Positions 3,725 through 59,553 of a stretch of DNA of 59,553 bases are shown here, in pieces. The translations under genes were made by a program, and so were the position numbers. The DNA comes from Gammaproteobacteria bacterium. GTDB lineage: Bacteria; Pseudomonadota; Gammaproteobacteria; HK1. Within the stretch, counting starts at the first letter, position 1, and each line of letters opens with the position of its first letter. Below the pieces are notes generated by a model. The model searched no databases, was not told the origin of the DNA, and was given only the letters and a program-made list of their open reading frames with translations. The stretch spans positions 1 through 59,553 of the forward strand of contig JAJFJT010000035.1 in NCBI GenBank assembly GCA_021773795.1. Reading direction: 5' to 3'.

Positions 3725-5382
3725 ATCAGATCATCCCGAAAGAAGCGATACAGGGAACGCACGGGGTTGGGTGCCGCCTGGCCGAGACCACAGATGGAGG
3801 CGTTCGTCATCGCCTCGGCGAGTTCAGACAGCAGCGCCTCGTTTTCCACTGGTGCACGCAATAACTCCGCAGCCTTTTCCGTACCCACTCGGCAGGGGGT
3901 GCACTGGCCACAGCTCTCGTGGGCGAAAAAAGCCATGAGGTTGCGCGTGACTGCAGAAAGGTCATCTTGATCACTCAGCACGATAAGGGCCCCGGAGCCG
4001 ACGAAACAACCGTGCTCGTCCAGGCTGCCAAAATCGAGCGGCAGATCGGCGAGGCGTTCCGGCAAAATTCCACCGGACGCGCCACCGGGCAGGAAAGCAC
4101 GAAAGGTATGGCCCTCGGCCATGCCGCCCGCGTACTCATCGATAAGCTGCCGCGCACTGATACCCGCCGGCGCCCGCTTTACACCCGGTTCGCGCACCCG
4201 CCCGGATACCGAGTACGCACGCAGTCCGCTGGCTCCATTGAGACCCAGCGCTGCGAAGCGCTCCGCGCCCTGCTCCAGGATCTCCCGCAGCCAGTAGAGG
4301 GTTTCCACATTCTGCACCAGCGTCGGCCGGCCAAATAGGCCCTGCTCGGCTACATAAGGCGGACGATGGCGAGGCAGACCCCGCTTGCCCTCTATGCTCT
4401 CCAGCATTGCCGACTCCTCGCCGCAGATATAGGCACCGGCACCGCGCCGGACCTCGACACCCCCGGCAGGTGCCAGGCCAGCCTCAATGACGGCGGGCAA
4501 CTCCTCGGCAAGCAGACGATAAAGCTCTGGATATTCATCCCGCAGATAGATATAGATCTTCTCCGCACCCACCGCCCAAGCCGCGAGCAACACGCCCTCC
4601 AGTACCCGGTGCGGTTCGCGGGCGAGGTAGTCACGGTCCTTGAAGGTGCCCGGCTCACCTTCATCAGCATTAACCACCATGTAGCGGGGGCCTGGGGCTG
4701 AGGCCACCGTCCGCCATTTGTGCGCGGTGGGGAAACCGGCGCCGCCCAGGCCACGCAGACCCGAGGCCTCCAGCTTGTTAAGGATATCCGTGAGTGGGCG
4801 CTTACCAATACGACAGCTCTGCAGCAGCTGGTAACCCCCATCCGCCACATAGGCCACGTAACGAGTTGCACTCGGGAGCGGCTCTTCCACACGATCATCC
4901 AGCGCGGTGCGTACTGATTGAGGGCTGGCATTAACGATGTAGCGGGCATCGATGGCAACGACCGGGGCGCAGTCGCAACGACCCATGCAGGAACCGGGCA
5001 ACACCCGTGCACGACCCGACAATTGCCCGCGCAACTGCCCGAGCAGGGTATCGGCACTGGCGAGCATGCACGGCAGGCTGGTACAAACCCGCAAGACGGG
5101 TAGAGAAGGATTCTCGCTATCTATATGGAAGTGGGCATAGAAACTTGCCACCTCGTAGATCTCAGCCATGGGGAGTCGCATCTCGGCCGCGAGGGCGGTG
5201 AGATGGAGGCGAGACAGATGATGGTAGTGCGCCTGGATGCGATGAAGGTATTCGATTAGCAGGTCACGGCGGAGCGGCTCGACACCCAGCACTTCCCGCA
5301 CGGCTTCCAGTGCCGCAGGCTCGACGCTGCGTCCACGGGGATGCAGTTTACGCTGTTTACCTCTGCCCCTCGCCCTCACCAT
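3721..5382 (-). CDS. fdsB: Formate dehydrogenase diaphorase subunit, NuoE-NuoF (gamma-beta) fusion
   Basis: A 553-residue NAD-reducing subunit that takes electrons from the alpha subunit and passes them via FMN to NAD+. The first ~150 residues are the 24-kDa NuoE/thioredoxin-like [2Fe-2S] domain (VCTSLPCMLAS, GSCMGRCD). The rest is the 51-kDa NuoF domain with the NADH/FMN site (LRGLGGAGFPTAHKW, GAYICGEESAM) and the C-terminal 4Fe-4S motif (ESCGQCTPCRVGTEK). In most fds operons these two parts are separate genes; the fused form recalls HoxF of NAD-reducing hydrogenase. An in-frame ATG at 5484 exists, but its extra 34 residues translate a REP-like repeat, so the ATG at 5382 is preferred. The stop overlaps fdsA. 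Confidence 0.9.
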   Translation of the reverse strand: MVRARGRGKQRKLHPRGRSVEPAALEAVREVLGVEPLRRDLLIEYLHRIQAHYHHLSRLHLTALAAEMRLPMAEIYEVASFYAHFHIDSENPSLPVLRVCTSLPCMLASADTLLGQLRGQLSGRARVLPGSCMGRCDCAPVVAIDARYIVNASPQSVRTALDDRVEEPLPSATRYVAYVADGGYQLLQSCRIGKRPLTDILNKLEASGLRGLGGAGFPTAHKWRTVASAPGPRYMVVNADEGEPGTFKDRDYLAREPHRVLEGVLLAAWAVGAEKIYIYLRDEYPELYRLLAEELPAVIEAGLAPAGGVEVRRGAGAYICGEESAMLESIEGKRGLPRHRPPYVAEQGLFGRPTLVQNVETLYWLREILEQGAERFAALGLNGASGLRAYSVSGRVREPGVKRAPAGISARQLIDEYAGGMAEGHTFRAFLPGGASGGILPERLADLPLDFGSLDEHGCFVGSGALIVLSDQDDLSAVTRNLMAFFAHESCGQCTPCRVGTEKAAELLRAPVENEALLSELAEAMTNASICGLGQAAPNPVRSLYRFFRDDLM

Positions 5383-5426
5383 GTTCGTCCCCGTACCTGA
5401 TAGCGGGATTGGAATCCGAGCTTCTT

Positions 5427-5490
5427 TATAGTGGCCCCGTTCCCTGGGTCCCGGCCTCCGCCGGGATGACGGGGGTGGCGTCACCCCCGT
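5427..5490. repeat. REP-like intergenic repeat with 9-bp inverted stem
   Basis: Between sucD and the formate dehydrogenase genes. It contains the widespread motif GTCATCCCGGCGGAGGCCGG (minus strand) and, at 5469-5490, a perfect stem ACGGGGGTG / CACCCCCGT with a 4-nt loop. There is no T-run, so it is not a classic intrinsic terminator, though it could stop or protect the sucCD transcript. Confidence 0.5.
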
Positions 5491-30823: not shown

Positions 30824-31612
30824 ATGAACGGGTGGAAACTTTTCGGAAAAATGGTAGCCGCTTCAGGGCTGGCGCTGGCAGTCTCGGTACCATCCCATGC
30901 CGCCATCTTCGACGTCACGGTCGATGGTAGCGATGCCATATTCCTCGCGGGGCGTACGGACATAACAATTCCGGATGCCTCCCTGCCCTGGACTACAGGT
31001 ACCCACCTGATCCGCCATAGTGGGGCTACGCCCGAAGAGATCAAGGAAACCCTGCCACCCTTCATCTCTGTTGCTGCGGGTGACGTGATCCGCGCCGCCG
31101 ACCCTGCGGTTGGTGGCGTCAGCTTTTTCAATGGTTTCGGCGCTCCCTTTTTTGGTCCGGGTGGCAATGGAGTAGGTGGCAGCAACCTCGCATCCCTCGA
31201 TGGCATCAGCGGCTATAAGGGACCACAAGGCCCTCTCGTCGGCGTTTTTCTGGATGGTTCCATTCCGAGTGGTGGGGCAGCGCCCATAACACTCGATTTC
31301 TCCGGGACAGGAATTGGGGCGGATTTTTCTAGCCTCAGCCCCTTGCTCCGTCAGGTGTTCTATATCGGTAACGGCCTCACCAGCAGTAGCGTGTTTCAGG
31401 AATTCATCGCTCCGACCGGCGCCACACGCCTGTTTCTCGGTATTCCTGATGGCTTTGGCTTTGGCGGTCTCCCGGGTGCTTACGATGATAACGATGGCTC
31501 CTACCGTGTACGCATTGGCGTGAACGAGATACCCAATGTCCCCGAGCCGGGAACGCTCGCACTGCTGGGGCTGGGACTGACCGGTTTGGGATTCAGCCGC
31601 CGACGCATTTAA
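30824..31612 (+). CDS. PEP-CTERM sorting-domain exported protein
   Basis: A 262-residue secreted protein. It has an N-terminal signal peptide (MNGWKLFGKMVAASGLALAV, cleaved near SHA-A), a Gly/Ser/Phe-rich low-complexity body without recognised domains, and a classical C-terminal sorting signal: VPEPGTLALLGLGLTGLGFS with basic RRRI at the end. Such proteins are processed by exosortase and appear on the surface or in exopolysaccharide. Exosortase genes are not in this window, so they must be elsewhere. The gene is alone, with a sigma-54-like promoter upstream and an intrinsic terminator downstream. Confidence 0.92.
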   Translation: MNGWKLFGKMVAASGLALAVSVPSHAAIFDVTVDGSDAIFLAGRTDITIPDASLPWTTGTHLIRHSGATPEEIKETLPPFISVAAGDVIRAADPAVGGVSFFNGFGAPFFGPGGNGVGGSNLASLDGISGYKGPQGPLVGVFLDGSIPSGGAAPITLDFSGTGIGADFSSLSPLLRQVFYIGNGLTSSSVFQEFIAPTGATRLFLGIPDGFGFGGLPGAYDDNDGSYRVRIGVNEIPNVPEPGTLALLGLGLTGLGFSRRRI

Positions 31613-48266: not shown

Positions 48267-49027
48267 AGATCCTGGTGGTGGACGACGAGCCACCGGCACG
48301 CCAACGCCTCATCGACCTGCTGGTAAAACTTCAACCGGAGAGCACGGTGCGAGAGGCCGGCAATGGCGTGGAGGCACTCCATGCAGTGGCACAGGATGCC
48401 CCGGATGTAGTGCTCATGGACATCCGCATGCCTGCCATGGACGGCCTTGAGGCCGCCACCCACCTGGCAACATTGCCACATCCTCCAGCAGTCATCTTTA
48501 CCACTGCCTACGATAGTCATGCACTCGCGGCCTTCGATGCACAGGCTATCGATTACCTGTTGAAACCGATCCGCCGGGAACGACTGCAGGCCGCCCTCGG
48601 ACGGGTGCCGAGGCTGGAGCCAGGCAACATCGACAAGCTGCAGGCCATGCGCGGCGATGCACGCAGTCATCTCAGCACCAGCCTGCATGGTGAGCTGCAC
48701 CTGATACCGATTTCTGAAATTCGTTATCTCTGCGCCGAGGATAAGTATGTCAGCGTTGGCTTTCCCGATAAGGAACTGCCGGTGGATGATTCTCTACAGG
48801 CTCTGGAGACCGAGTTCCCGGAGCGCTTCCTGCGCGTCCATCGCAACGCCCTGGTAGCCCTGGCCTTCGTCAGCGGGCTGGAAAAAGCCCCCGACGGAAA
48901 AGCCTTTATCCGGCTGCTGGGGATATCCCGAACCATCGCCGTCAGCCGACGACTATTGCCGAAAATCAGACGCCAACTGAAGCGCCTTGCTGTGAGTTCA
49001 TCGCCCACGGAGCAGCGCAAGGAATGA
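48263..49027 (+). CDS. algR: LytTR response regulator (AlgR-like)
   Basis: A 254-residue regulator. Receiver domain: acidic pocket VVDDEPPARQR, phospho-Asp in VVLMDIRMPAMDGLEA near residue 53, and the conserved Lys in DYLLKPIRRERL. The C-terminal LytTR DNA-binding domain is HLIPISEIRYLCAEDKYVSV and FPERFLRVHRNALVALAFV. GTG start overlapping the kinase stop as GTGA. The product should control adhesion or pilus genes; it is followed at once by CheW/MCP-type genes in one operon. Confidence 0.92.
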   Translation: MKILVVDDEPPARQRLIDLLVKLQPESTVREAGNGVEALHAVAQDAPDVVLMDIRMPAMDGLEAATHLATLPHPPAVIFTTAYDSHALAAFDAQAIDYLLKPIRRERLQAALGRVPRLEPGNIDKLQAMRGDARSHLSTSLHGELHLIPISEIRYLCAEDKYVSVGFPDKELPVDDSLQALETEFPERFLRVHRNALVALAFVSGLEKAPDGKAFIRLLGISRTIAVSRRLLPKIRRQLKRLAVSSSPTEQRKE

Positions 49028-49563
49028 TGCCGGAAAGCGACCCCGCCAGTGTGCTGCTGGATATTGAAGCACGTGCACATGCCCGTCAGCATGCTCTGCC
49101 ACCGGCACCTGATAGCACGAGAAATTTGAGGCCCTTTCTGGGATTTGGGCTGGCGGATGCGCGCCTTGTTATCGCCGCTACACAGATACTGAAATCCCCG
49201 TTATCCACTCGTGTTCCCGGTGCGCCACCCTGGTTACGGGGAGTCGCCGGGCTGCATGGTTATCCACTACCCATTATCGATTTTTCCAGCCTGTGCAGTC
49301 TTCCCGAACAAGCGTCTGAAAACGACCCCCACGTGCTGGTGATCGGACATCAAAGAGCGAGCTGTGGCCTGTTGGTTGATTCGGTATACGGGCTGGTGGT
49401 TGCAGATGAGGTGGGTGACAGCACGCTCCCGGAATTGGAATCAGGGATTACAGCCTATCTGCATGGTAGTTGCCGTAGCGGTGATACCCTTTGGGGAGTC
49501 GTGGATCCCGCACGGATATTTCATCGCCTAACATCCGCGGAACATCTGGAGGAAGCAGGATGA
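49024..49563 (+). CDS. pilI: CheW-domain coupling protein (PilI-like)
   Basis: A 179-residue single CheW domain protein. FGLADARLVIAATQILKSPL and RGVAGLHGYPLPIIDFSSLC correspond to the two beta-barrel strands pairs, and LVIGHQRASCGLLVDSVYGL is the typical CheW core. It would link the MCP-like protein to the CheA-like protein. The ATG overlaps the algR stop (ATGA) and the gene overlaps the next ATG likewise. The similarity is nearest the PilI/TsaP-type twitching group. Confidence 0.82.
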   Translation: MMPESDPASVLLDIEARAHARQHALPPAPDSTRNLRPFLGFGLADARLVIAATQILKSPLSTRVPGAPPWLRGVAGLHGYPLPIIDFSSLCSLPEQASENDPHVLVIGHQRASCGLLVDSVYGLVVADEVGDSTLPELESGITAYLHGSCRSGDTLWGVVDPARIFHRLTSAEHLEEAG

Positions 49564-51506
49564 GCTTGAGTTTCAGGGCTACCTTATTTTTTGGCTTCCT
49601 CGTGACCGCCCTCGGCTGTTTTTACCTGCTCAGCCGCTCCCAGACAGCGGACACGGAATTCCTTATGCGCATGGCAAGCCTGCAAACACAGCTTGGGCGT
49701 CTCGCCTATCAGGCAGAAAACCTTGATAACACCCGGCCCTCGACCCTCCACGCCATGGGCTCCCTGAGGGACAAGCTGGAAACGGCCCTGCGTGTCCAGC
49801 GACCTGACTTGCTGGAGCCGGTGTGGAAAAACCTCCGTGACGATATAGATATGCTGCTCGCCGAGACACCCATTGAGCACACCTTAGCGGGAAATATCAC
49901 CACCCTGAAGATCGCCATGGAGCAGGCTCACGAGCTCAGTGGGCAACTGGAGAATTCAAGCACCGACCCGCGACTGGAAAAACGGGCAGTACAGCATCAA
50001 CTACTGATCGCACAAATGGGGCTTGCGCTGGCCCGCCTGCCTAAGGACGGCAGCGCGCTCAAGCTCGAAGCTAATCTGGTGGATCTGGGGCGCTCTATCT
50101 ATCAGCTACTCAATGACGATCCGCTGGAAAATATTGAGGCCGTCACGAATCGAATCCCACGGGATCAACTGGAGGATCTTTCTGCACTACTGCGCGAACA
50201 TGGCCCCCTGTTCCGCCAGGTCATTCAGCAAGCTGGGACTTTCGCCTCTATCCGCGAAATACATAGAGCCATCAACCACGGCATCCTGCTGTTGCGCGAG
50301 CAACTCGCCAACACCGTGCGACAGCGGCAGCAGCAGATGCGCCGGCGAGCGGTTTCCATAACACTGGCGCTAAGCTTACTGGGAATCACCCTTCTGGCCC
50401 TGGCCTTGGTGATCATCGAATTGGCTCGTATCGCACGGGTGCAGGCAAATCGGGCCACCCGCCTACAGCAATATCGTCGCCAGTCCCGCGCGGCTATCGG
50501 TGAGATTACCGAGGCCATCAGAGCGCTGGTGGAGGCAGCAGATCATCCGATGGCACTGCGCCATGATCGCTACGGCGATATCGTTGAGGCCATCAATGAA
50601 TTGTTGGAGGCACGCGGAAAACGCTACACCACCGTTTCAGCCCAGACCCGTGAATTAAACACCATGGCCAGCGCTGCTCGGGAGGCGATCAAGAAGCTCC
50701 TGATGCTTGGCAAAACGCAGCGGAAAATGCAGCAAAACACTCGCGAAGAACTGCACCAGGCCAGCCAAACGCTGCGTCAGGCCGCGGCGGAGGCACGCAG
50801 TTTTGGCGAAAGCCTCGGCCGGGTTCGAAGCGCTGTTGACGCTGAGTGGCAAGCCCTCATGGCCGATAGCAATGCACTAAAACAGGGGATGAAAGGATTC
50901 GCCCAGACGCACACTGCCCTGGCCCGATGGGAGGCCCCGCTGCACAGGTTGTACCAGTTACTGCGCGAGATGGAAGAACTCGCCGAGGCATGTAATATTC
51001 TGGCGATTAACAGCGCCCTGCTCAGCACCTCGGAGGGAGCACAACGGAACGAACCTGATATTGAACATATCCAGAACTACGTGGCGCAGATCAATCGCGG
51101 CAGTGGCCAAGCCATAGCTGAACTTGGGCAGCTGGAGGAACACGGGCTCTCGGCCCAGGAAATCACTGTGGAAAGCAGAGAGAGGATGGCCGCCCACTCG
51201 CAGCAAAAAGAGCAGCGAATGGACACACTCCAGAGCCTCAGTAGCCGCATGCGAAGCCTGGCCAATCAGTCAGCTGATTTGTTACGTGCGGCCGAGGCCG
51301 CTGATCAAAGCATGGTCAGTAATGCCCCGCTCACAGAGGCCCTGGAAGAGACTGCAATACTGGAAATTTCCGACTGGATCGCCAACGTGACTGAGCTGGC
51401 GGATGCATTGCAAACAGGCCTGCGCGAGCTCCATACTCTGCCCAACGGCATAGCCGCAAAGCAAAACGGTACTGACAAGCACGGGGGGGGGCCGCATCCG
51501 TTATGA
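49560..51506 (+). CDS. pilJ: PilJ-like MCP with degenerate signalling tip
   Basis: A 648-residue membrane protein. First helix SFRATLFFGFLVTALGCFYL (near 4-23), a ~250-residue helical periplasmic domain, second helix VSITLALSLLGITLLALALV (near 265-284), a HAMP-like linker and a long cytoplasmic coiled coil. In usual MCP/PilJ tips the turn reads NAAIEAARAGE...GFAVVADEVR; here it is ILAINSALLSTSEGAQRNEP with no VVADEVR, so the contact surface with CheA/CheW is altered. The true ATG is 49560, overlapping the pilI stop. It lies between pilI and a CheA-like gene with ATGA overlaps. Confidence 0.72.
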   Translation: MSLSFRATLFFGFLVTALGCFYLLSRSQTADTEFLMRMASLQTQLGRLAYQAENLDNTRPSTLHAMGSLRDKLETALRVQRPDLLEPVWKNLRDDIDMLLAETPIEHTLAGNITTLKIAMEQAHELSGQLENSSTDPRLEKRAVQHQLLIAQMGLALARLPKDGSALKLEANLVDLGRSIYQLLNDDPLENIEAVTNRIPRDQLEDLSALLREHGPLFRQVIQQAGTFASIREIHRAINHGILLLREQLANTVRQRQQQMRRRAVSITLALSLLGITLLALALVIIELARIARVQANRATRLQQYRRQSRAAIGEITEAIRALVEAADHPMALRHDRYGDIVEAINELLEARGKRYTTVSAQTRELNTMASAAREAIKKLLMLGKTQRKMQQNTREELHQASQTLRQAAAEARSFGESLGRVRSAVDAEWQALMADSNALKQGMKGFAQTHTALARWEAPLHRLYQLLREMEELAEACNILAINSALLSTSEGAQRNEPDIEHIQNYVAQINRGSGQAIAELGQLEEHGLSAQEITVESRERMAAHSQQKEQRMDTLQSLSSRMRSLANQSADLLRAAEAADQSMVSNAPLTEALEETAILEISDWIANVTELADALQTGLRELHTLPNGIAAKQNGTDKHGGGPHPL

Positions 51507-53923
51507 ATGAGCGGGAGCATACAGACTTGCCCCCCGCCTGGGCTGAGCTTCTTGGCGAAGCCACGCAATGGCTTAACGCCTGGGCGGACGGCTCACGCGG
51601 ACCCGGGGCCATCCGGGCCTTTGCCGCCACCTTGCTGCGCCTTGCCCAACTCCCGGATATTGCTACCGACACCCGGGCGGTCCAGTCTCTCGAAAAGATG
51701 GCCACCATAGCCCAGGCACTTAGCGGCAGCAGCGGCCCCGCCCGTGAAGAAAGTCAGTTCCATCTACAAGCCGCATATACCTCTTTGCACCTACGTTTAA
51801 ACGCAATGCACCGAAACACCCCCTTTCAGAGCAAGACACTGCCGCCGCCACGATTGCTGGCAAAAGCGCTGCGCGCACGCAATAACGAGGCCCTGCTGGA
51901 GCGCCTGGAAGCCAGCATTCCCCGCCAAGCTGGCAAGCCCCGACCCACGGGTGAATCAGGGCAAGCCCGACTTAGGCAACTGCGTGGATATTTCCAACGC
52001 GGTCTGGCTGGTTGGTTGCGCGAGCCTGCTAACAGTCACCATCCCGCCCTAATGGCGCAAGTGCTCGGAGAACTGGGACAACAGATGCCTGGGCCTCAGC
52101 AGGGCAATCTCTGGTGGTGCGGACAAAGTATCGCCATGGCGCTGGCAACCAGAGAGCTCCGTGCCACACCGCCACTGCGCCGCACCCTGTTTCGGCTGGA
52201 TGGCGAACTGCGGACCGCGCAACAAGTTGAAGCTACGTCCACAGCTCAGGCACTTCGCCATGATCTGCTGTTCTACTGCCTGCTTACCAAGGCCTCCAAC
52301 CCACGCACCCAGACTCTGCATAAGGTTCTGGCGGCGCGTGTGGTGGCACCACAAGCAACACCTGTTCCGGGCAACTCACCGGCTTTGAAGGACGTGGAGA
52401 TACCGGAAAACCTGCGGGCTGAGATGGATCATGCCCGCGATCTGCTCCAGCGTATGGATGGCACCTTCTCGGCATCCAATGCATTGCCTTTGGAAGGGGA
52501 AACATCCCCTCCCTCTGAGCCTGAAAGCATTCCAGCCTTTGTGGATGGTGAAGCGTTGCGCCAGTTCTTCGACCGTGCGGGCGAGCTCAAAGAAACACAA
52601 TTCCGCATGGAGCAGCAAGGCAGTGCCGTCGATAGCGGCCTGCAGCTCATGGAGGACACCATACTCACCCTCAAGTCTCAATTGGAGCGCCTTGAGGGGC
52701 CCATGGAACCACACCCAGTGGTAATCGCTGCCAAGCTGACGGCACGGGATCCTGGCGCGCGACTCAACTCGGCCCTAAGCGATAGTATGGACACGCTTCG
52801 CTCTGCTCAGGACCAGCTGCTCGATCTCAAGCGAGAGTCAAACTCCCTGCTGGACCACCAACAACACCTTGGTTCAGAACTCGACCAGGTGCTGGTGCGG
52901 CTCCAGATGTTGCCCTTCCGCCATCTCCTGCCCGCGCTGAAAAAATTTACTGCAGCGCAGGCCGCCGCAGCCCAGCCGGCGAAAGCGGTTGCACTCTCCG
53001 TGCTTGGGGAGGGCGTGCTGCTAGAGCGTAGCCTGCTCGAACCGCTGGAAAAACTGCTGAAAGTCCTGATTGAAAGTGCGGTCTCGGCCGGCATAGAGGG
53101 AAGCGAAGAGCGTAGCCAGCAGGGGAAGGGAGAAACCGGACGCTTGCACTTGGTACTGGCCCAGGAAAAGGCGGGACTGCGCATCCAGCTTTGGGACGAT
53201 GGTGCCACCCCCGACACCCGGGAACTTTTGCATAAGGGAATTGCCCGCGGCTTATTGGAGGCCGAAAGTGAGTCCTCTGCCGAGGCCGTACTGCAGTGTC
53301 TGAGTCATCAGACCATGGTGAACGAGGCATCAACGTTCCCGCGTATACAAGGGCTGATAGCCGCTGCCCGTGCCGCACGCACCCTAGGTGGCAACCTTCA
53401 GCTTGCCGCCAACCCCGGCGGAGGATTACGAGTCATACTCAGTCTCGAGACCCAACCCAGTGTCGGCGAAGTGCTACTCATCGAACTTCAAGATGAATCC
53501 TACGCCATCCGTCTGGAGGACATCCGGGGTCTCACCCGCATTAGCCACAAGGAACTGGAAGCACTAGCCGAACATCAACCGCTGCAACATATCCACCAGG
53601 ATCGCAGCTACCGTTGCGTCGAGCTCAGACAAGCCCTGGGCGTACCTGCAAACGATGACACCATCACCAACCCCCAATCCCGACCGGCATTGCTGGTGGA
53701 GGGGGCCAATGGACCACGGGCAATACTTGTGGATCGTATTAATGGGCGCAGACAGGCGCTGGTGCAACCCATCGCACCCCCACTGAACACCTTGCCGCTG
53801 CTCGCCGGCTCCACCATCAGCGAACAGGGGCGGGTGATCTTTGTGCTGGATTTAGATGCCCTGGACCCACCTCGCCTCACCACCGGAGAAGGCGATGCTC
53901 AAGGGCATCCCTTACTGCACTAA
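51503..53923 (+). CDS. Truncated, kinase-dead CheA/ChpA-like protein
   Basis: An 806-residue protein with ChpA/PilL order but stripped of active parts. The N-terminal ~270 residues match the ChpA helical N-terminus (QLRGYFQRGLAGWLREPANS, GNLWWCGQSIAMAL, RHDLLFYCLL). No Hpt His motif (HTLKG) is seen. The P3/P4-like part has LGSELDQVLVRLQMLPFRHL, then LLKVLIESAVSAGIEGSEER where kinases have LRNAVDHGIE, and FPRIQGLIAAARAARTLGGN where they have GRGVGMDVV. A C-terminal CheW-like P5 (VLLIELQDESYAIRLEDIRG) is present; no receiver domain. Catalysis is therefore unlikely; a scaffold role is inferred. ATG overlaps the pilJ stop. Confidence 0.8.
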   Translation: MNEREHTDLPPAWAELLGEATQWLNAWADGSRGPGAIRAFAATLLRLAQLPDIATDTRAVQSLEKMATIAQALSGSSGPAREESQFHLQAAYTSLHLRLNAMHRNTPFQSKTLPPPRLLAKALRARNNEALLERLEASIPRQAGKPRPTGESGQARLRQLRGYFQRGLAGWLREPANSHHPALMAQVLGELGQQMPGPQQGNLWWCGQSIAMALATRELRATPPLRRTLFRLDGELRTAQQVEATSTAQALRHDLLFYCLLTKASNPRTQTLHKVLAARVVAPQATPVPGNSPALKDVEIPENLRAEMDHARDLLQRMDGTFSASNALPLEGETSPPSEPESIPAFVDGEALRQFFDRAGELKETQFRMEQQGSAVDSGLQLMEDTILTLKSQLERLEGPMEPHPVVIAAKLTARDPGARLNSALSDSMDTLRSAQDQLLDLKRESNSLLDHQQHLGSELDQVLVRLQMLPFRHLLPALKKFTAAQAAAAQPAKAVALSVLGEGVLLERSLLEPLEKLLKVLIESAVSAGIEGSEERSQQGKGETGRLHLVLAQEKAGLRIQLWDDGATPDTRELLHKGIARGLLEAESESSAEAVLQCLSHQTMVNEASTFPRIQGLIAAARAARTLGGNLQLAANPGGGLRVILSLETQPSVGEVLLIELQDESYAIRLEDIRGLTRISHKELEALAEHQPLQHIHQDRSYRCVELRQALGVPANDDTITNPQSRPALLVEGANGPRAILVDRINGRRQALVQPIAPPLNTLPLLAGSTISEQGRVIFVLDLDALDPPRLTTGEGDAQGHPLLH

Positions 53924-53929
53924 GTCGCA

Positions 53930-54382
53930 GTGGAAACAGGTTGCGTACACTGCCTGATCCTGCCCCTGGATACGGGTAGATTACTGGTGCCGGCGGCCTT
54001 GGTCGCGCATGTCAAAATGCTGAAACAGCCGGTGGCGCAGCGTGACAATGCGCCCCCATGGCTTGCGGGAAATATCAGCTGGCGTGATTGCACTCTGCCA
54101 CTCATCGCACCGAACTATCAGGCCTTGGAGACCACGACTCGGCCTGTCGCCATCTTGCATACTCTGGCACAAACAACCGGGCCGAAATTCTTTGCCTGCC
54201 TGCTCTCAAAACTCCCGCACTTCCTTTATATCTCACCACAAAGCATCTGCTGGAGTGAGGTGGAGACCCCGCCGCTCCCTTGCGTTGCAGGTGCAGTACA
54301 ACTGAATGATGGCCCCGCATGGATTCCGGACCTGGTGAGTCTCGAGGCAGCTCTGCAAAGGCCACGGAAGTTCCCACACTGA
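53930..54382 (+). CDS. chpC: CheW-like protein (ChpC-like)
   Basis: A 150-residue CheW-fold protein, GTG start 6 bp after the previous stop. Strand segments VHCLILPLDTGRLLVPAALV and WLAGNISWRDCTLPLIAPNY resemble ChpC, the second CheW-type protein of the Pil-Chp cluster. The C-terminal part (FFACLLSKLPHFLYISPQSI) completes the barrel. Last gene of the six-gene algZ-to-chpC unit; the next gene is convergent, 30 bp away. No terminator hairpin is obvious between them. Confidence 0.7.
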   Translation: METGCVHCLILPLDTGRLLVPAALVAHVKMLKQPVAQRDNAPPWLAGNISWRDCTLPLIAPNYQALETTTRPVAILHTLAQTTGPKFFACLLSKLPHFLYISPQSICWSEVETPPLPCVAGAVQLNDGPAWIPDLVSLEAALQRPRKFPH

Positions 54383-54412: not shown

Positions 54413-56926
54413 TTAGAAAGTCATCCTGTATCCCGCATTCACAAAGTAGCTACGGGTAATTTCCGCACTTCCAACCCGCCGGTCCTTGGCCCACTCGCCT
54501 CCCACCTCAGCCTCGAAACGCACTCGTTTCTTCCAGCGGTTTTCTATCCTTAGCGATGGCTTGATAGTAAAGCGCTCCCCGATATCCCGTTTGTTCTGGC
54601 GATAAGACAGCGTTGCCTTTGGATTGATACGAAATGCCCGGGTAAAAGGATATCGGGTATTGAGATTGAGGCTTACGGTGTCTGAGGTGTTGACGTCAGA
54701 ATAGCGCAACCCGAGGATGCCGATATCTCCCTGTTTAAATAAACCACTACCGATGAGTTGGGTGCTGATAAAGAAGTCATAGCCACTGCTGGACGTCCCC
54801 TCGATAGCCCCATTGAAAAGCTTGCTGTTGAGGGAAAGATCTGTGCCGGAGGTATGGCTTATGTTGGCATCGCCGGTGATCTGAAATTTCTCATTCAGCG
54901 GACGTGATGCCCCCAGGGTCAGCGACGTAGTGGTTGCCGCGCGGTCACGTGCAAACTGCCGCAACTCACTGTTACTGAAGGTTCCCAGTGCTTGGGAGAC
55001 TGACAAAATGCTGGCACCTGCAGCATTGAGTTGCTGCAAGGCATTGCTGGTAGTCAGGATCGGGCTCTTGCGGCGATCGAAGGTGGCATTAAATGATGTC
55101 CGATCCGGCAGTGTCCAGGTTCCAAGCACCAGAAAGGTATTGAGTGTGCGGAACGAAACATCGTAATCAACCAGGCTGAACAACGAACGCCCTGCAGAAA
55201 AATAACGCATCTCACCACCCACGGCACGCCGATCCGTAATCCCATCTACCTGTTGATCGATAATGAAGGCATTAAAGTCCCAGCGCTCGTTAAAAGTTCC
55301 CAGGTCTGCGCTCAGGCCAGTGAAGTGCTTGTTGGTAGTGATCGTGGTGTCGTCAGTATCATTAACCGGATAGCCAAACACTGCGTTTAACTTGAGCTTG
55401 GGTGTAAATCCATAGCCCACGAATGCGCCATCAAAACGCCCGAGCACACCACCGCTACTGCGCGACTGCCGCCCTGCCCGTAGCGAGGCACGGTCCCCTC
55501 CCTTATGAAAGGCATCAAAAAACAGCTCGCTGATCGAGGTATCACTCTGCTTAGAATTGAGAAAATCCAGCTCGTGGCCACCGGTAAATTGGAAACGTAA
55601 ATCGTAGTCTTTGCCACGCCGCCGGACGCTGAGATTCAGATTCGTAGGCAGCCTCGACTGAGTGACCGTTTCTCCCGCAGCGTCTGTGAGCAGGATATCG
55701 CGCCGATAAAATTGGGAGAGGCCGCCAAAAACACGCCAGACTGGAGCCGCTGAGCGTCCTCGACGTCTGCTCTTTGCCAGGGACTTTTTAGGCGCCTTTC
55801 TGGCGGTCAGTAGTCCCGCAAGGCGCTGCCGAACCCGCTCCGTAGCCTCACCTTCCGGATACTCCAGCAGGTATTTTTTATACTCCGCCTTCGCATGGGC
55901 AAGTTGTCCGTTACGCTCCCGGCCCAGCCCCAGCAACTCCCGTGACTCGCGCCGGTAGCGCTCGCCGGGCTCGCCGGGCTCGCGGAGAATACGGGTCAGT
56001 AATCGTATCGCCTCCCGATAGTTCTTTGCCGTCATTGCCTCCTTGGCATCACCAAACATCTGGCTAAGACGGGTTTCTGACAAGCGCCGCCGGGCGGCTT
56101 TTGGCTTTGTGCTCACGGCCTTTACCGATGGCTTGGTCTGGCTGGCGACTAGCGGGGCAGACATTTCCCGTAGATGACTGGAGACCTCCTTTGTCGGAGC
56201 ACGTTCAATCCATGCCTGTGGATACTCATTGCGAATTTTCTCTGCCATCTTTTTCGCGGCGGAAAAGCTGGGGAAAAAACCAAGACGCAGTCGATGCCAC
56301 GCTTCTCCATCTTTGGTAAACAGCGTGGTATAGAGGGCATAGCCCTTCAAGGCTGCCGGGCGCGCGAGTCGATCGAGTAGAAACTTTTTTTGGGAAGATT
56401 CCAGATTTAGCACGTAATGACGGCGCTGGATCGGAGGTGATTCGGCAGGTTTGGGTGGGACGGATTTTTTCGGTTTAGCCGCGACACGGCGAGACAAGGG
56501 AATGCTGACAATCAGACTACGGAAATCACTGCCACTGTGGATTGAGGCTTTCACAGCAGTTTTCAGGCGAATCAATACTTCCGGAAAACCCACCGTTTCT
56601 CCGTCAAATACAACCTCGGTGAGCGGTACCGCCGTGGTCGCGTCCCAAGCCAGCGACTCACGTACTTGCATTGACAATGAATCCTCAGAGTCAAGAGCGA
56701 TGACCGGCTGCAATTGAACACGCAACAGCCGCCCCCCCTCCGCAACTTGATGGGACACGTAGCGCACGGGAAAATTAAAGAGGATACGGAGATCGACCTC
56801 TTCCTGGTGTTGTTCGACCTGGATATCCGACAGAACCCTGGAACCCACTTCTGTCGCCTGCACCGACGATGCAAACAAGAAAATCCCTACCGCCAGGATC
56901 ACCTGGCAACCCGAAAAATAGCGCAA
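54413..56926 (-). CDS. Outer-membrane beta-barrel with N-terminal domain, SPOR and TPR segments
   Basis: An 837-residue protein in four parts. (1) Signal peptide (VILAVGIFLFASSVQA) and a ~115-residue domain (VDLRILFNFPVRYVSHQVAE, SGSDFRSLIVSIPL) shared with the small protein upstream. (2) A SPOR-like domain, HYVLNLESSQKKFLLDRL and WHRLRLGFFPSFSAAKKMAE. (3) A helical TPR-like segment with KNYREAIRLLTRILREPGEP. (4) From about residue 420 a beta-barrel of alternating strands ending YFVNAGYRMTF with terminal Phe, the BAM signature. TTG 56926 has GGAGG 7 nt before it; ATGs at 56953 and 56959 are alternatives. It follows a multihaem cytochrome, so it is a candidate porin of an electron conduit. Confidence 0.82.
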   Translation of the reverse strand: MRYFSGCQVILAVGIFLFASSVQATEVGSRVLSDIQVEQHQEEVDLRILFNFPVRYVSHQVAEGGRLLRVQLQPVIALDSEDSLSMQVRESLAWDATTAVPLTEVVFDGETVGFPEVLIRLKTAVKASIHSGSDFRSLIVSIPLSRRVAAKPKKSVPPKPAESPPIQRRHYVLNLESSQKKFLLDRLARPAALKGYALYTTLFTKDGEAWHRLRLGFFPSFSAAKKMAEKIRNEYPQAWIERAPTKEVSSHLREMSAPLVASQTKPSVKAVSTKPKAARRRLSETRLSQMFGDAKEAMTAKNYREAIRLLTRILREPGEPGERYRRESRELLGLGRERNGQLAHAKAEYKKYLLEYPEGEATERVRQRLAGLLTARKAPKKSLAKSRRRGRSAAPVWRVFGGLSQFYRRDILLTDAAGETVTQSRLPTNLNLSVRRRGKDYDLRFQFTGGHELDFLNSKQSDTSISELFFDAFHKGGDRASLRAGRQSRSSGGVLGRFDGAFVGYGFTPKLKLNAVFGYPVNDTDDTTITTNKHFTGLSADLGTFNERWDFNAFIIDQQVDGITDRRAVGGEMRYFSAGRSLFSLVDYDVSFRTLNTFLVLGTWTLPDRTSFNATFDRRKSPILTTSNALQQLNAAGASILSVSQALGTFSNSELRQFARDRAATTTSLTLGASRPLNEKFQITGDANISHTSGTDLSLNSKLFNGAIEGTSSSGYDFFISTQLIGSGLFKQGDIGILGLRYSDVNTSDTVSLNLNTRYPFTRAFRINPKATLSYRQNKRDIGERFTIKPSLRIENRWKKRVRFEAEVGGEWAKDRRVGSAEITRSYFVNAGYRMTF

Positions 56927-57091
56927 CGTCTCGCCTCCCTGTCCTACGCTCATGCTCACCCCAATGGTGCAACCAGAACTCGATTACCCGGGTGATTTAT
57001 TATTGTTATCAGATTGTTATATAACTAATATGACCAGTATGCACATATATATAGCCCAAACCACTATTTTTTATGCGTTTTTATAGCCAGT

Positions 57092-57577
57092 TCACATTTT
57101 TGAGGAACAAGAGCCATCGGACGAGGCCTCCGGAAGAAGCACGGTTATGCTGCGGAAATCACTCCCCTGAAAAACCTGCGCGTGTCGTTTTCCGGAAAAC
57201 TCGAGATGTAGTACGGGTCCGTTAGGTGAATCACCCTGATAGACCACGGCTTCCACCACACCGCTCTTGCCATTCTCGGGAAAGACGGCCTCCCGCTGTA
57301 TCAGCACATCCCGATCTCCCGGATTTACCCTGATGGGCCTGAGTTCAATGTGTAGCTCGTCGTGGGCATGCAACGGGAAATGGCGCAGATAACGTACGGG
57401 AAAGCTGAAATCTACATTCAACACGAGACAGCCATCGTCACGGGAAAACAGCTGCGCACCCTCCAGCACCCGGTTTCGTACGGTTTGCGCCTCCAGCCCA
57501 AAGGTGGACAACATGAACCCAATAAACAAGCCTACCATCCTGCACTGGTGTCCTGAACTGGCTACCCGGAAACCCAT
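57092..57577 (-). CDS. Small exported protein paralogous to the barrel's N-terminal domain
   Basis: A 161-residue exported protein: signal peptide (MVGLFIGFMLSTFGLEAQ) and one domain. Its core (VDFSFPVRYLRHFPLHAHDE, VVEAVVYQGDSPNGPVLHLE, FQGSDFRSITVLLPE) matches the N-terminal domain of the downstream outer-membrane protein over its whole length. ATG 57577 is chosen (GGAG 8 nt upstream); 57598 is possible. It lies 25 bp after the multihaem cytochrome stop and before the barrel gene on the same strand, so it is likely a soluble or anchoring partner of the conduit. Family unknown. Confidence 0.72.
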   Translation of the reverse strand: MGFRVASSGHQCRMVGLFIGFMLSTFGLEAQTVRNRVLEGAQLFSRDDGCLVLNVDFSFPVRYLRHFPLHAHDELHIELRPIRVNPGDRDVLIQREAVFPENGKSGVVEAVVYQGDSPNGPVLHLEFSGKRHAQVFQGSDFRSITVLLPEASSDGSCSSKM

Positions 57578-57602
57578 TGGCCTCACTCCTTCCGCCACAC
57601 CC

Positions 57603-59553
57603 CTACCATCCGTCCTTGCTTAGACTGTGTTCATTGCTCTGATGTTTCTCGATCACACTGAAAGTATTGTCCGTATATCTGTGACATGAACCCTCGCAAT
57701 CCCTGAGTTCCCCCACCAGATAGAGAAGTCGGGGTTCCTTGACCTTCTTGTGCTTGTCCTGCTTTTCCAAATAATCACTCGCGTGACAACCGGCACAATC
57801 TGGCCGGTAGGAAGGTGAGAACCAGGTAGCTGTCTGGCTATTACCCGTATGACAATCCCTACATTCCAGATTCTTGCCATGTTGCCCTGGATATTCCGGT
57901 GAAGAGTGCTGGAAATCGATCGGAGTCCAGAACGACGTATTGTGGCAACTATCACACTGCAGGGTGGTGACAAAATGGCCGCTCTGCTTGCCAGTTGCGG
58001 TCACGCCATTGTGGCAACTGGAACAACTACCGGTCACCGTCCCATGATCGAAATTAGCGGGCAGCCAGGCTATCGTCGCGTGGCAGATATCGCATTGACC
58101 ACTGGTTTGGACGTGGTTCCCCGGTTTTCCCAGCGCTGTGACCCCGTTGTGACAGGTCGAGCAGGTAGCCGTCACACCGACATGGTCAAAGGTTGCGCCA
58201 GCCCAGGTGGCAGTGATATGGCAGTCATCACACAGATTGCTAGTGGGCAGGTGAGTTGGGGATTTACCCGGAGCAGTGACGCCATTGTGACAGCTCGCGC
58301 AACTCCCCTGTACCGCACCATGATCCACCTGCGTTACCGGTGCCCAGGCCAAAGTGCTATGACAGTCCTCACAGATATTGGTGGTCGCCATGTGAGTGCC
58401 ACCCTTGCCCGGAGCCGTGACCCCATTATGGCAACTCGTGCAGGAGCCGGTAACGCCAGAGTGATCAAAGATCGCGCCACTCCAACTGGAGGTGGTGTGG
58501 CAGTCATCACAGATGTTGCCGCTGGCTAAGTGAGTCGGTGATTTTCCAAGCGCCGTGACACCGTTATGGCAACTGGAGCAACTCCCCTGCACTGCGCCAT
58601 GATCCACCTGCGACACCGGCACCCACGCGGAGGTTAAATGACAGTCCTCGCAGATATTGGTGGTCGCCATATGGGTGCCGCCCTTGCCCGGGGCCGTGAC
58701 CCCGTTATGGCAACTCGTGCAGGAGCCGGTGACACCACAGTGCTCGAAGATCGCACCACTCCAACTGGAGGTGGTGTGGCAGTCATCACAGATGTTGCCG
58801 CTAGCCAAGTGAGTCGGTGATTTTCCAAGCGCAGTCACGCCATTGTGACAGCTGGCACAGCTGCCTTGCACCGCACCGTGATCTACTTGTGACACCGGCA
58901 CCCATGCCGAAGTGGTATGGCAGTCCTCACAAATATTGTTGGTTGCCATGTGCGTACCGCCCTTGCCCGGGGCCGTGACCCCGTTATGGCAACTCGTGCA
59001 GGAGCCGGTAACGCCGGCGTGATCGAAGATCGCGCCACTCCAACTGGAAGTAGTGTGGCAATCTTCACAGATATTGCCGCTGGCCAAATGAGTCGGTGAT
59101 TTTCCAGCAGCGGTGACACCATTGTGGCAACTCGAACAACTCCCCTGCACTGCGCCATGATCGACCTGCGACACCGGGACCCACGCGGAGGTTAAATGAC
59201 AGTCTTCGCAGATATTGGTGGCCGCCATGTGAGTTCCGCCCTTACCTGGGGCCGTGACCCCGTTGTGGCAACTCGAGCAGGAACCGGTAATGCCGGCGTG
59301 ATCGAAGATCGCGCCACTCCAACTGGAAGTAGTGTGGCAATCTTCACAGATATTGCCGCTGGCCAAGTGAGTCGGTGATTTTCCAAGCGCAGTCACGCCA
59401 TTGTGACAGCTGGCACAGCTGCCTTGCACCGCGCCGTGATCCACTTGCGACACCGGCACCCATGCCGATGTGATATGGCAGTCCTCGCAGAGGTTCGTCG
59501 TCGCCATATGGGTGCCGCCCTTACCCGGGGCCGTAACACCGTTGTGGCAACTC
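57603..59553 (-). CDS. Giant multihaem c-type cytochrome, 5' end beyond window
   Basis: The open frame runs past the right edge (over 649 codons seen). It contains 25 complete CXXCH haem sites plus the last half of another at the edge, and one CX3CH (DCEGSCH) near the C-terminus. Haems alternate in two modules of 46 and 47 residues: CEDCHTTSSWSGAIFDHAGV...CTSCH and CEDCHLTSAWVPVSQVDHGA...CSSCH, joined by NGVTAPGKGGTH or NGVTALGKSPTH. Extra His (DH and TH) recur before each CXXCH, fit for bis-His ligation. The final third is less repetitive and Lys-rich. It is presumably exported, and an extended chain of stacked haems is inferred. Followed by the paralogous small protein and the outer-membrane barrel. 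Confidence 0.93.
   Translation of the reverse strand, partial: SCHNGVTAPGKGGTHMATTNLCEDCHITSAWVPVSQVDHGAVQGSCASCHNGVTALGKSPTHLASGNICEDCHTTSSWSGAIFDHAGITGSCSSCHNGVTAPGKGGTHMAATNICEDCHLTSAWVPVSQVDHGAVQGSCSSCHNGVTAAGKSPTHLASGNICEDCHTTSSWSGAIFDHAGVTGSCTSCHNGVTAPGKGGTHMATNNICEDCHTTSAWVPVSQVDHGAVQGSCASCHNGVTALGKSPTHLASGNICDDCHTTSSWSGAIFEHCGVTGSCTSCHNGVTAPGKGGTHMATTNICEDCHLTSAWVPVSQVDHGAVQGSCSSCHNGVTALGKSPTHLASGNICDDCHTTSSWSGAIFDHSGVTGSCTSCHNGVTAPGKGGTHMATTNICEDCHSTLAWAPVTQVDHGAVQGSCASCHNGVTAPGKSPTHLPTSNLCDDCHITATWAGATFDHVGVTATCSTCHNGVTALGKPGNHVQTSGQCDICHATIAWLPANFDHGTVTGSCSSCHNGVTATGKQSGHFVTTLQCDSCHNTSFWTPIDFQHSSPEYPGQHGKNLECRDCHTGNSQTATWFSPSYRPDCAGCHASDYLEKQDKHKKVKEPRLLYLVGELRDCEGSCHRYTDNTFSVIEKHQSNEHSLSKDGW
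58370..59553. repeat. Tandem 279-bp coding repeats in the multihaem cytochrome
   Basis: Segments repeat every 279 bp (93 codons, four haem motifs per unit), for example CTCCAACTGGAAGTAGTG at about 59038 and 59317 and near-identical versions 279 and 558 bp to the left. Identity falls towards 58200 and the C-terminus of the protein. The high DNA identity suggests recent unequal recombination, so copy number may vary between strains or be collapsed in the assembly. Confidence 0.85.

Follow-up and report, generated by a model that had tools for sequence, protein, structure and literature searches.

An FAD/Fe-S oxidoreductase that accompanies PCC3 porin-cytochrome clusters and may connect them to NAD(P)H

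The porin-cytochrome cluster PCC3 was described as a putative conduit consisting of a porin, an extracellular cytochrome, a periplasmic cytochrome and an inner-membrane protein (IMP), and large porins were already part of that description (He et al. 2017, PMC5566968). The IMP has ∼300 amino acids (aa), five helices, two WX3HX13H motifs and an SGXXG motif, and the giant repeat cytochromes carry a median of 34 haems and up to 85 in the largest (PMC5566968). The passages describing PCC3 in six papers (PMC5566968, PMC10734462, PMC12442390, PMC8788666, PMC13386937, PMC12016527) list it as four genes, and one of them describes its function as untested (PMC12442390). Surveys count PCC3 as a possible iron-oxidation system, and expression data conflict. 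Here we analysed a stretch of 59,553 nucleotides (nt), referred to as the window, which is a complete contig (C29 of genome G000) of a gammaproteobacterial genome of 2.56 Mb and 99.3% completeness and carries one part of a PCC3 cluster. As PCC3 is known, the locus itself is ordinary; its interest lies in a flavoenzyme encoded next to the IMP, in a probable peptidoglycan tether and in the quantised haem wires. Our analysis suggests that the enzyme, an NAD(P)-type Fe-S flavoprotein, is a near-obligate companion of PCC3. The explanation that we consider best, and somewhat probable, is that PCC3 forms an NAD(P)H-linked wire spanning the envelope, with an arrangement like that of NADPH oxidase (NOX) at the inner membrane. 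Should the wire end on the inner side in an NAD(P)H enzyme rather than in the quinone pool alone, the energetics of PCC3, and probably the direction of its electron flow, would need rethinking.

A PCC3 cluster divided between two contigs

The original prediction, made from the sequence of the window, proposed a porin-cytochrome conduit at its right end, and all the features it named lie where it put them, on the minus strand. For comparison we used the best 80 of 434 loci (the named loci), all found through the IMP and with mechanically assigned starts of open reading frames; there are 81 loci when L005, on contig C17 of the same genome, is counted. The features of the cluster are:

57603..59552, minus strand: C-terminal part (649 aa) of the giant, putatively surface-located ("extracellular") multihaem cytochrome, with 25 CXXCH and one CX3CH, open at the contig edge
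L005:15359-16090, contig C17: start of the giant cytochrome, its first ∼218 residues with a signal peptide
57092..57598, minus strand: small exported protein, 168 aa, 4 nt after the cytochrome stop, with a domain common to the porin N-terminus
54413..56959, minus strand: PCC3 porin, 848 (or 837) aa, terminal Phe, with 39 homologues in the 80 named loci
56498..56833, minus strand: N-terminal beta-rich domain of the porin, residues 43-154, from the model and the alignment with the small protein
56207..56422, minus strand: SPOR domain of the porin, residues 180-251 (PF05036, 33.8 bits against a cut-off of 21)
55802..56077, minus strand: TPR-like helices of the porin, residues 295-386, from the model (TPR_16 in 20 of 37 aligned porins)
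54416..55738, minus strand: predicted 22-strand beta-barrel of the porin, residues 408-848 (AlphaFold2 model, mean pLDDT 83.9)
L005:9126-11186, contig C17: ankyrin/Sel1 repeat exported protein, 686 aa, 7 nt after the gene of the FAD/Fe-S enzyme and on the same strand

The cytochrome was predicted to have at least 25 CXXCH motifs, in agreement with the frame in the window, which is cut at the window end because the window is a whole contig and the assembly breaks there. When we searched the genome with the cytochrome, the sole other matching place was the end of contig C17. The two contigs overlap exactly and in frame over 79 nt, and the overlap string is single-copy in the window. The joined frame encodes 867 aa with 33 CXXCH and one CX3CH, a number of repeats that is uncertain because the assembly break falls inside them. 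Extension to the right, which had been advised in order to recover the cytochrome start and its neighbours, thus yielded both on C17. Upstream of the cytochrome start are a 588-aa exported cytochrome with 24 CXXCH and a signal-like N-terminus and, directly before it, the gene of the 289-aa IMP; divergent from the IMP gene are the genes of a 435-aa oxidoreductase and then the 686-aa ankyrin/Sel1 protein. Hence, the locus is a PCC3 porin-cytochrome cluster split in two by the assembly, in which the ankyrin/Sel1 protein and FAD/Fe-S oxidoreductase genes are divergent from those of the IMP, the 24-haem cytochrome, the surface cytochrome, the small protein and the porin. We rejected an assembly chimera, as C17 is the only other matching place and a single contig of a genome of the same genus (L043) carries this order, namely the enzyme, the IMP, a 24-haem cytochrome, a 905-aa cytochrome with 35 CXXCH, the small protein and the porin. 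In another genome of the genus (G016) the porin, the IMP and the enzyme were all unmatched at the thresholds used. Conservation of the gene set across genomes also held, since a surface cytochrome frame precedes the porin in 38 of the 39 named porin loci, the exception being L119.

The locus shows no departure from published PCC3 clusters in its porin, giant repeat cytochrome, periplasmic cytochrome (18-27 haems), five-helix IMP with the motifs, or gene order. The IMP has five hydrophobic segments, WX3HX13H at positions 86 and 264 and SGXXG at 127; across 50 aligned IMPs, each of these motif residues is either invariant or conserved to at least 90%. It is 42% identical to the IMP of Bradyrhizobium sp. 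STM 3843 (L110, found by the IMP profile), a strain named in print as a PCC3 carrier (PMC5566968). The many-haem periplasmic cytochrome is followed by a second, larger repeat cytochrome with a low ratio of amino acids to haems, and the same cluster encodes the predicted outer-membrane barrel. In the window, Pfam finds ten Cytochrome_C7 and four Paired_CXXCH stretches in the cytochrome, as well as Cytochrom_c3_2, and we rejected chance haem motifs in view of 25 regular CXXCH with such strong matches. A giant repeat cytochrome is a known hallmark of PCC3, and the locus therefore joins a known kind. A porin-cytochrome conduit remains the best reading of the conserved gene set, as originally predicted, and the novelty claimed for its type falls away with the publication of PCC3 in 2017 (PMC5566968). 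In such a conduit the large cytochrome would be extracellular and electrons would pass between it and the cell.

The conduits MtrAB, MtoAB and PioAB likewise pair a periplasmic multihaem cytochrome with an outer-membrane barrel for the same general task, whereas the locus has 22 predicted strands and cytochromes with 24 and at least 33 haems. None of 37 porins matched the MtrB family (Pfam, E 0.01), presumably represented there as MtrB/PioB. The DmsE-type decahaem model TIGR03508 gave 129 bits with the surface cytochrome in the window and 21 bits with the periplasmic one, both under its cut-off of 192. An MtrAB-type conduit was rejected on these two grounds.

The FAD/Fe-S enzyme, the ankyrin/Sel1 protein, the small N-domain protein and the SPOR and TPR parts are unnamed in the published descriptions of PCC3 that we found. 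The main text of He et al. 2017 (PMC5566968) does not mention FAD, thioredoxin, ankyrin, peptidoglycan or ferredoxin; the enzyme may be listed in its supplements or figures.

The flavoenzyme and the inner-membrane protein

We analysed the presence of the IMP and the enzyme in 369 genomes drawn from the class. The line for the IMP was E <= 1e-24 (41 genomes), set after a gap in the list had been seen, with 26 weaker IMP-like genomes (E <= 1e-3) left out; the line for the enzyme, our own choice, was E <= 1e-60 (42 genomes), and the four best candidates per genome were scored. Both proteins were present in 40 genomes, the IMP alone in one, the enzyme alone in two and neither in 326 (Fisher p 5e-50, with ancestry ignored; the 41 genomes with the IMP span 33 families). 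The two genomes with the enzyme alone are G114, with a partial match, and G193, which is 72% complete. The enzyme lies within 12 kb of 40 of the 46 IMP places and is held by 73 of the 80 named loci. Among the loci lacking it, L079 and L106 have just 1.5 kb upstream of the IMP and L057 has 3.8 kb, and in L091 the enzyme lies on the contig of the IMP at a distance of 11.5 kb, just past the locus flank. A porin match was found in 39 of the named loci, many of the others being short. The additional genes could serve as markers for PCC3 where repeat cytochromes break assemblies, as they do here.

By similarity clustering, the ankyrin/Sel1 protein is present in 65 of the 81 loci, and CcmF, CcmG-like and CcmH-type clusters lie beside PCC3 in 9, 10 and 26 of them, with one member of each checked against Pfam. 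PCC3 has a neighbouring gene of the CcmF cluster, for cytochrome c maturation, in L072, L075, L090, L096, L098, L102 and L105; the member in L090 was the one checked, and in L072 the gene separates that of the FAD enzyme from that of the IMP.

The oxidoreductase has a single transmembrane segment, at its N-terminus, with a stretch of basic residues behind it; these positive charges suggest that the enzyme is cytoplasmic. Its domains are a two-cluster ferredoxin module with 2[4Fe-4S] motifs and flavin adenine dinucleotide (FAD) and NAD(P) Rossmann domains, which it has in common with its closest solved relatives, YpdA and the thioredoxin reductases. Unlike these, it has a membrane anchor and the 2[4Fe-4S] module, and no redox disulfide. 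In an alignment of 29 homologues, the cluster motifs read CX2CX2CX3C for the first, with Cys63 in 27 of the 29, and CX2HX2CX3C for the second, with His94 in all of them; this histidine is a probable ligand of the second [4Fe-4S] cluster. There is no CXXC conserved in the flavin part of these homologues, since the only other cysteine-rich column is 411 (22 of 29).

The enzyme also differs from its relatives in that a segment TNVPGxFIAGE, which we take to resemble the C-terminal FAD motif of thioredoxin reductases, precedes its first Rossmann motif. When this segment was moved to the end of the query, matches to PDB lengthened by at least 17 residues in 8 of the 14 chains common to both searches (for example 7a76_A from 6-274 to 6-294 and 4gcm_A from 6-185 to 6-286) and by at most 4 residues in the remaining 6; a shorter query alone also shifts scores slightly. 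These results lend modest support to a flavin fold that is possibly circularly permuted.

In NOX and ferric reductases (FRE), the FAD/NADPH domain lies in the cytoplasm and supplies two b haems, from which electrons go outward. The IMP resembles the core of these enzymes in its two HX13H pairs on two helices (H90, H104, H268 and H282, all invariant in the 50 IMPs) and in the adjoining FAD/NAD(P) module. Unlike NOX, the IMP has no FAD/NADPH domain of its own, and its chain stops past the last helix. The FAD/NAD(P) module is instead a protein in its own right, a flavoprotein of the thioredoxin-reductase type with two Fe-S clusters and not of the NOX type. We modelled the IMP with the L043 protein (pLDDT 87.8). 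The tightest structural fit listed was to the Streptococcus pneumoniae NADPH oxidase 8qt6 (Z 10.1, root mean square deviation (rmsd) 2.6 over 114 residues, 17% identity), and cytochrome b561 also fits (Z 8.6, rmsd 3.8). Pfam gave weak cytochrome b561-type matches in 3 of the 50 IMPs (best E 0.0013), and the IMP profile gave chance matches only against PDB sequences. The fit to 8qt6 is only suggestive of a NOX-type di-haem fold. A likeness of these two HX13H pairs to the core of ferric reductases and NOX had already been noted (He et al. 2017, PMC5566968).

Haem numbers and a probable peptidoglycan tether

We counted haems as CXXCH motifs in complete frames, which gave 70 periplasmic and 43 surface cytochrome genes from the 80 loci. 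The number in the periplasmic cytochrome is divisible by three in 68 of the 70 (21 in 48 genes, 18 in 9, 24 in 7, 27 in 2, 9 in one and 33 in one), and the two exceptions have 22 and 23. The number in the surface cytochrome ranges from 5 to 73 and is odd in 42 of the 43. Hence, the periplasmic wire is built up by three-haem units to nearly one length and the surface wire by two-haem units to a free length. The odd rule is not universal, because the Gallionellaceae surface subunits include even haem numbers in counts that also cover CX3CH and CX4CH (Hoover et al. 2023, PMC10734462). We read the periplasmic cytochrome as a ruler that spans the periplasm, and an earlier suggestion that it may do so was made by Hoover et al. 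2023 (PMC10734462). Among the Bradyrhizobium surface cytochromes, one (L098:12679-19392) has 73 CXXCH in a complete frame of 2238 aa, and another (L090:12602-20809) has 90 CXXCH in 2736 aa and is still open at the locus end.

The barrel protein in the window has 848 aa when read from GTG and the 837 residues originally predicted when read from TTG at codon 12, and the sister porin gene in L043 starts with TTG at the matching position. The predicted terminal Phe is present. The AlphaFold2 model, built with 37 sequences, consists of the beta-rich N-domain, SPOR, TPR-like helices and a barrel in which we counted 22 strands. Whole-porin fold searches returned generic porins, ushers and TonB-type barrels, the latter among the best fits (Z up to 18.9) and including barrels that presumably have 22 strands as well. 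These searches barely probed the N-domain, SPOR and TPR parts, and MtrB was not among the matches listed, which excludes nothing.

The proposed N-terminal domain common to the porin and the 168-aa exported protein between cytochrome and barrel was borne out by their alignment (E 2e-9, 24% identity). No Pfam or NCBIfam family matched the small protein, 22 members of the N-domain gave no Pfam family above chance, and the N-domain profile gave chance matches only against PDB sequences; a presumed AMIN-like nature of the domain is not claimed in view of the last two results. In a family member (G007:C198:27193-31374), the porin barrel and the N-domain are in one frame, the N-domain is also in an adjacent small frame, and a further frame just beyond matches the SPOR part, which is then a neighbouring gene.

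The SPOR domain predicted in the barrel protein was confirmed by Pfam at residues 180-251. For TPR the outcome was divided, as Pfam calls none in this protein and the model has five helices at residues 295-386; TPR_16 is found in just over half of the aligned porins, and residues 290-376 have a weak match to BamD/YfiO, far under its cut-off. SPOR is no peculiarity of the window locus and is common among PCC3 porins: a profile made of 8 SPOR stretches detects it in 22 of 39, and Pfam at E 0.01 in 17 of 37. In four loci, SPOR is at the N-terminus of the surface cytochrome (L049 with three copies, L076 with two, L073 and L101), and L101 also has a small separate SPOR frame; Pfam confirms SPOR in the cytochromes of L049, L073 and L076 and in the small frame of L101. 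This position suggests that the N-terminal end of these cytochromes stays periplasmic and that the chain exits via the barrel. SPOR domains bind the glycan chains of peptidoglycan, and a tether of the outer part of PCC3 to peptidoglycan is therefore likely. Together with the three- and two-haem regularities, such a tether gives a concrete model in which the periplasmic ruler has a fixed length and the surface cable a free one. A literature search of the main texts of open journal papers found none joining a SPOR domain with a multiheme cytochrome and none joining porin-cytochrome, ankyrin and multiheme.

Proposed electron path, its direction and alternatives

Our main inference is that the FAD/NAD(P) enzyme travelling with the IMP could be the missing half of a NOX- or FRE-like device. 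In the path that we propose, for which we infer NAD(P)H use, the cytoplasmic side of the enzyme, b haems in the IMP, contacts between the partners, the peptidoglycan tether and the surface location, the membrane-anchored cytoplasmic flavoprotein would exchange electrons with NAD(P)H. Electrons would then cross the two [4Fe-4S] clusters, the second with its probable histidine ligand, and reach a pair of b haems in the IMP, a step that may be likened to the one from the FAD/NADPH domain of NOX and ferric reductases. The periplasmic cytochrome, made of three-haem units and nearly fixed in length, would span the periplasm and dock at the porin, and electrons would pass through the 22-strand barrel to the surface cytochrome with its two-haem units and free length. 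In many members, SPOR, TPR and the N-domain common to porin and small protein would anchor the outer part of the wire to peptidoglycan. With every part as stated, that is, a complete wire from NAD(P)H to the outside and no quinone-linked iron oxidase, with a permuted membrane-anchored Fe-S flavoenzyme, a three-Cys-one-His [4Fe-4S] cluster, a NOX-like di-haem relay, a periplasmic ruler of three-haem units, a surface cable of two-haem units and a 22-strand barrel tethered to peptidoglycan, this remains a tentative proposal, rather less probable than the NAD(P)H-linked wire as such. If true, PCC3 would be a multi-part NOX-like electron exporter, or an importer producing NAD(P)H, in several phyla.

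Several points weigh against an NAD(P)H-linked wire. The co-occurrence statistic takes no account of shared ancestry, one genome (G206) has the IMP without the enzyme, and the loci L077, L113 and L117 have no enzyme despite at least 9.8 kb upstream of the IMP. There is no porin match in L063, L077, L083 and L113 despite more than 5 kb downstream of the IMP; therefore, the IMP and the periplasmic cytochrome can occur without a recognisable PCC3 porin. For the IMP, Foldseek gave no significant fold match (best E 0.46), several looser helical bundles outscore 8qt6 in Z, and the IMP had no match to the ferric-reductase (FRD) family of Pfam. RuBisCO was found in 29 of the 41 PCC3 genomes and in 146 of the 328 others (p 0.0016), which fits uptake by lithoautotrophs, and one IMP gene from PCC3 is up with iron oxidation in Sideroxydans CL21 (PMC12442390).

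As to direction, we slightly favour electron export over uptake. The source genome has no match to RuBisCO or dsrA and has two COX1-family genes, and the NOX-like arrangement and the low potential of NAD(P)H would fit export. Likewise on the side of export, S. lithotrophicus ES-1 down-regulates its two PCC3 clusters on Fe(II) (PMC8788666).

The RuBisCO enrichment and the CL21 expression data also speak for PCC3 as published, a conduit for the oxidation of Fe(II) or minerals in which the IMP hands incoming electrons to the quinone pool (PMC5566968) and the enzyme has a side role or uses some of these electrons to make NAD(P)H. We regard this explanation as unlikely, though well ahead of the two that follow, as a side role leaves unexplained why the enzyme is as widespread as the IMP, the ES-1 clusters fall on Fe(II), and 12 of the 41 IMP genomes, the source genome among them, have no RuBisCO match. 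The enzyme could instead be a maturation or thiol-redox factor for haem-rich proteins that stands outside the wire, with the conduit still being PCC3. Its kinship with YpdA and thioredoxin reductases and the cytochrome maturation clusters next to PCC3 would suit such a role, which we nevertheless consider improbable: the flavin part lacks a conserved CXXC, the two Fe-S motifs are invariant or nearly so, and cytochrome maturation occurs on the periplasmic side, whereas the charges after the transmembrane segment suggest a cytoplasmic enzyme. Least probable is a giant cytochrome that acts as a peptidoglycan-anchored periplasmic store or relay of electrons and is merely secreted or anchored by the barrel, since its gene lies between those of the periplasmic cytochrome and the porin in all but one of the named porin loci and its haem number varies widely next to a partner near 21, as for a segment unconfined by the periplasm, even if the four loci with N-terminal SPOR on the large cytochrome and a lipobox-like motif in only 2 of the 43 surface cytochromes point the other way.

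Elsewhere in the window, frames at 974-5484 on the minus strand resemble, by eye, an NAD-dependent formate dehydrogenase and a NuoF/NuoE-type partner, a possible electron source in a genome without a RuBisCO match. A chemosensory-like cluster at 49024-54382 on the plus strand is convergent with the porin gene. Its products are two proteins of CheW type, one membrane protein of 671 aa and a protein of 806 aa whose sole Pfam match is CheW and which looks to us like CheA without recognisable kinase domains. The exported protein encoded at 30824-31612 on the plus strand ends in what we take to be a PEP-CTERM-like sorting signal (VPEPGTLALLGLGLTGLGFSRRR).

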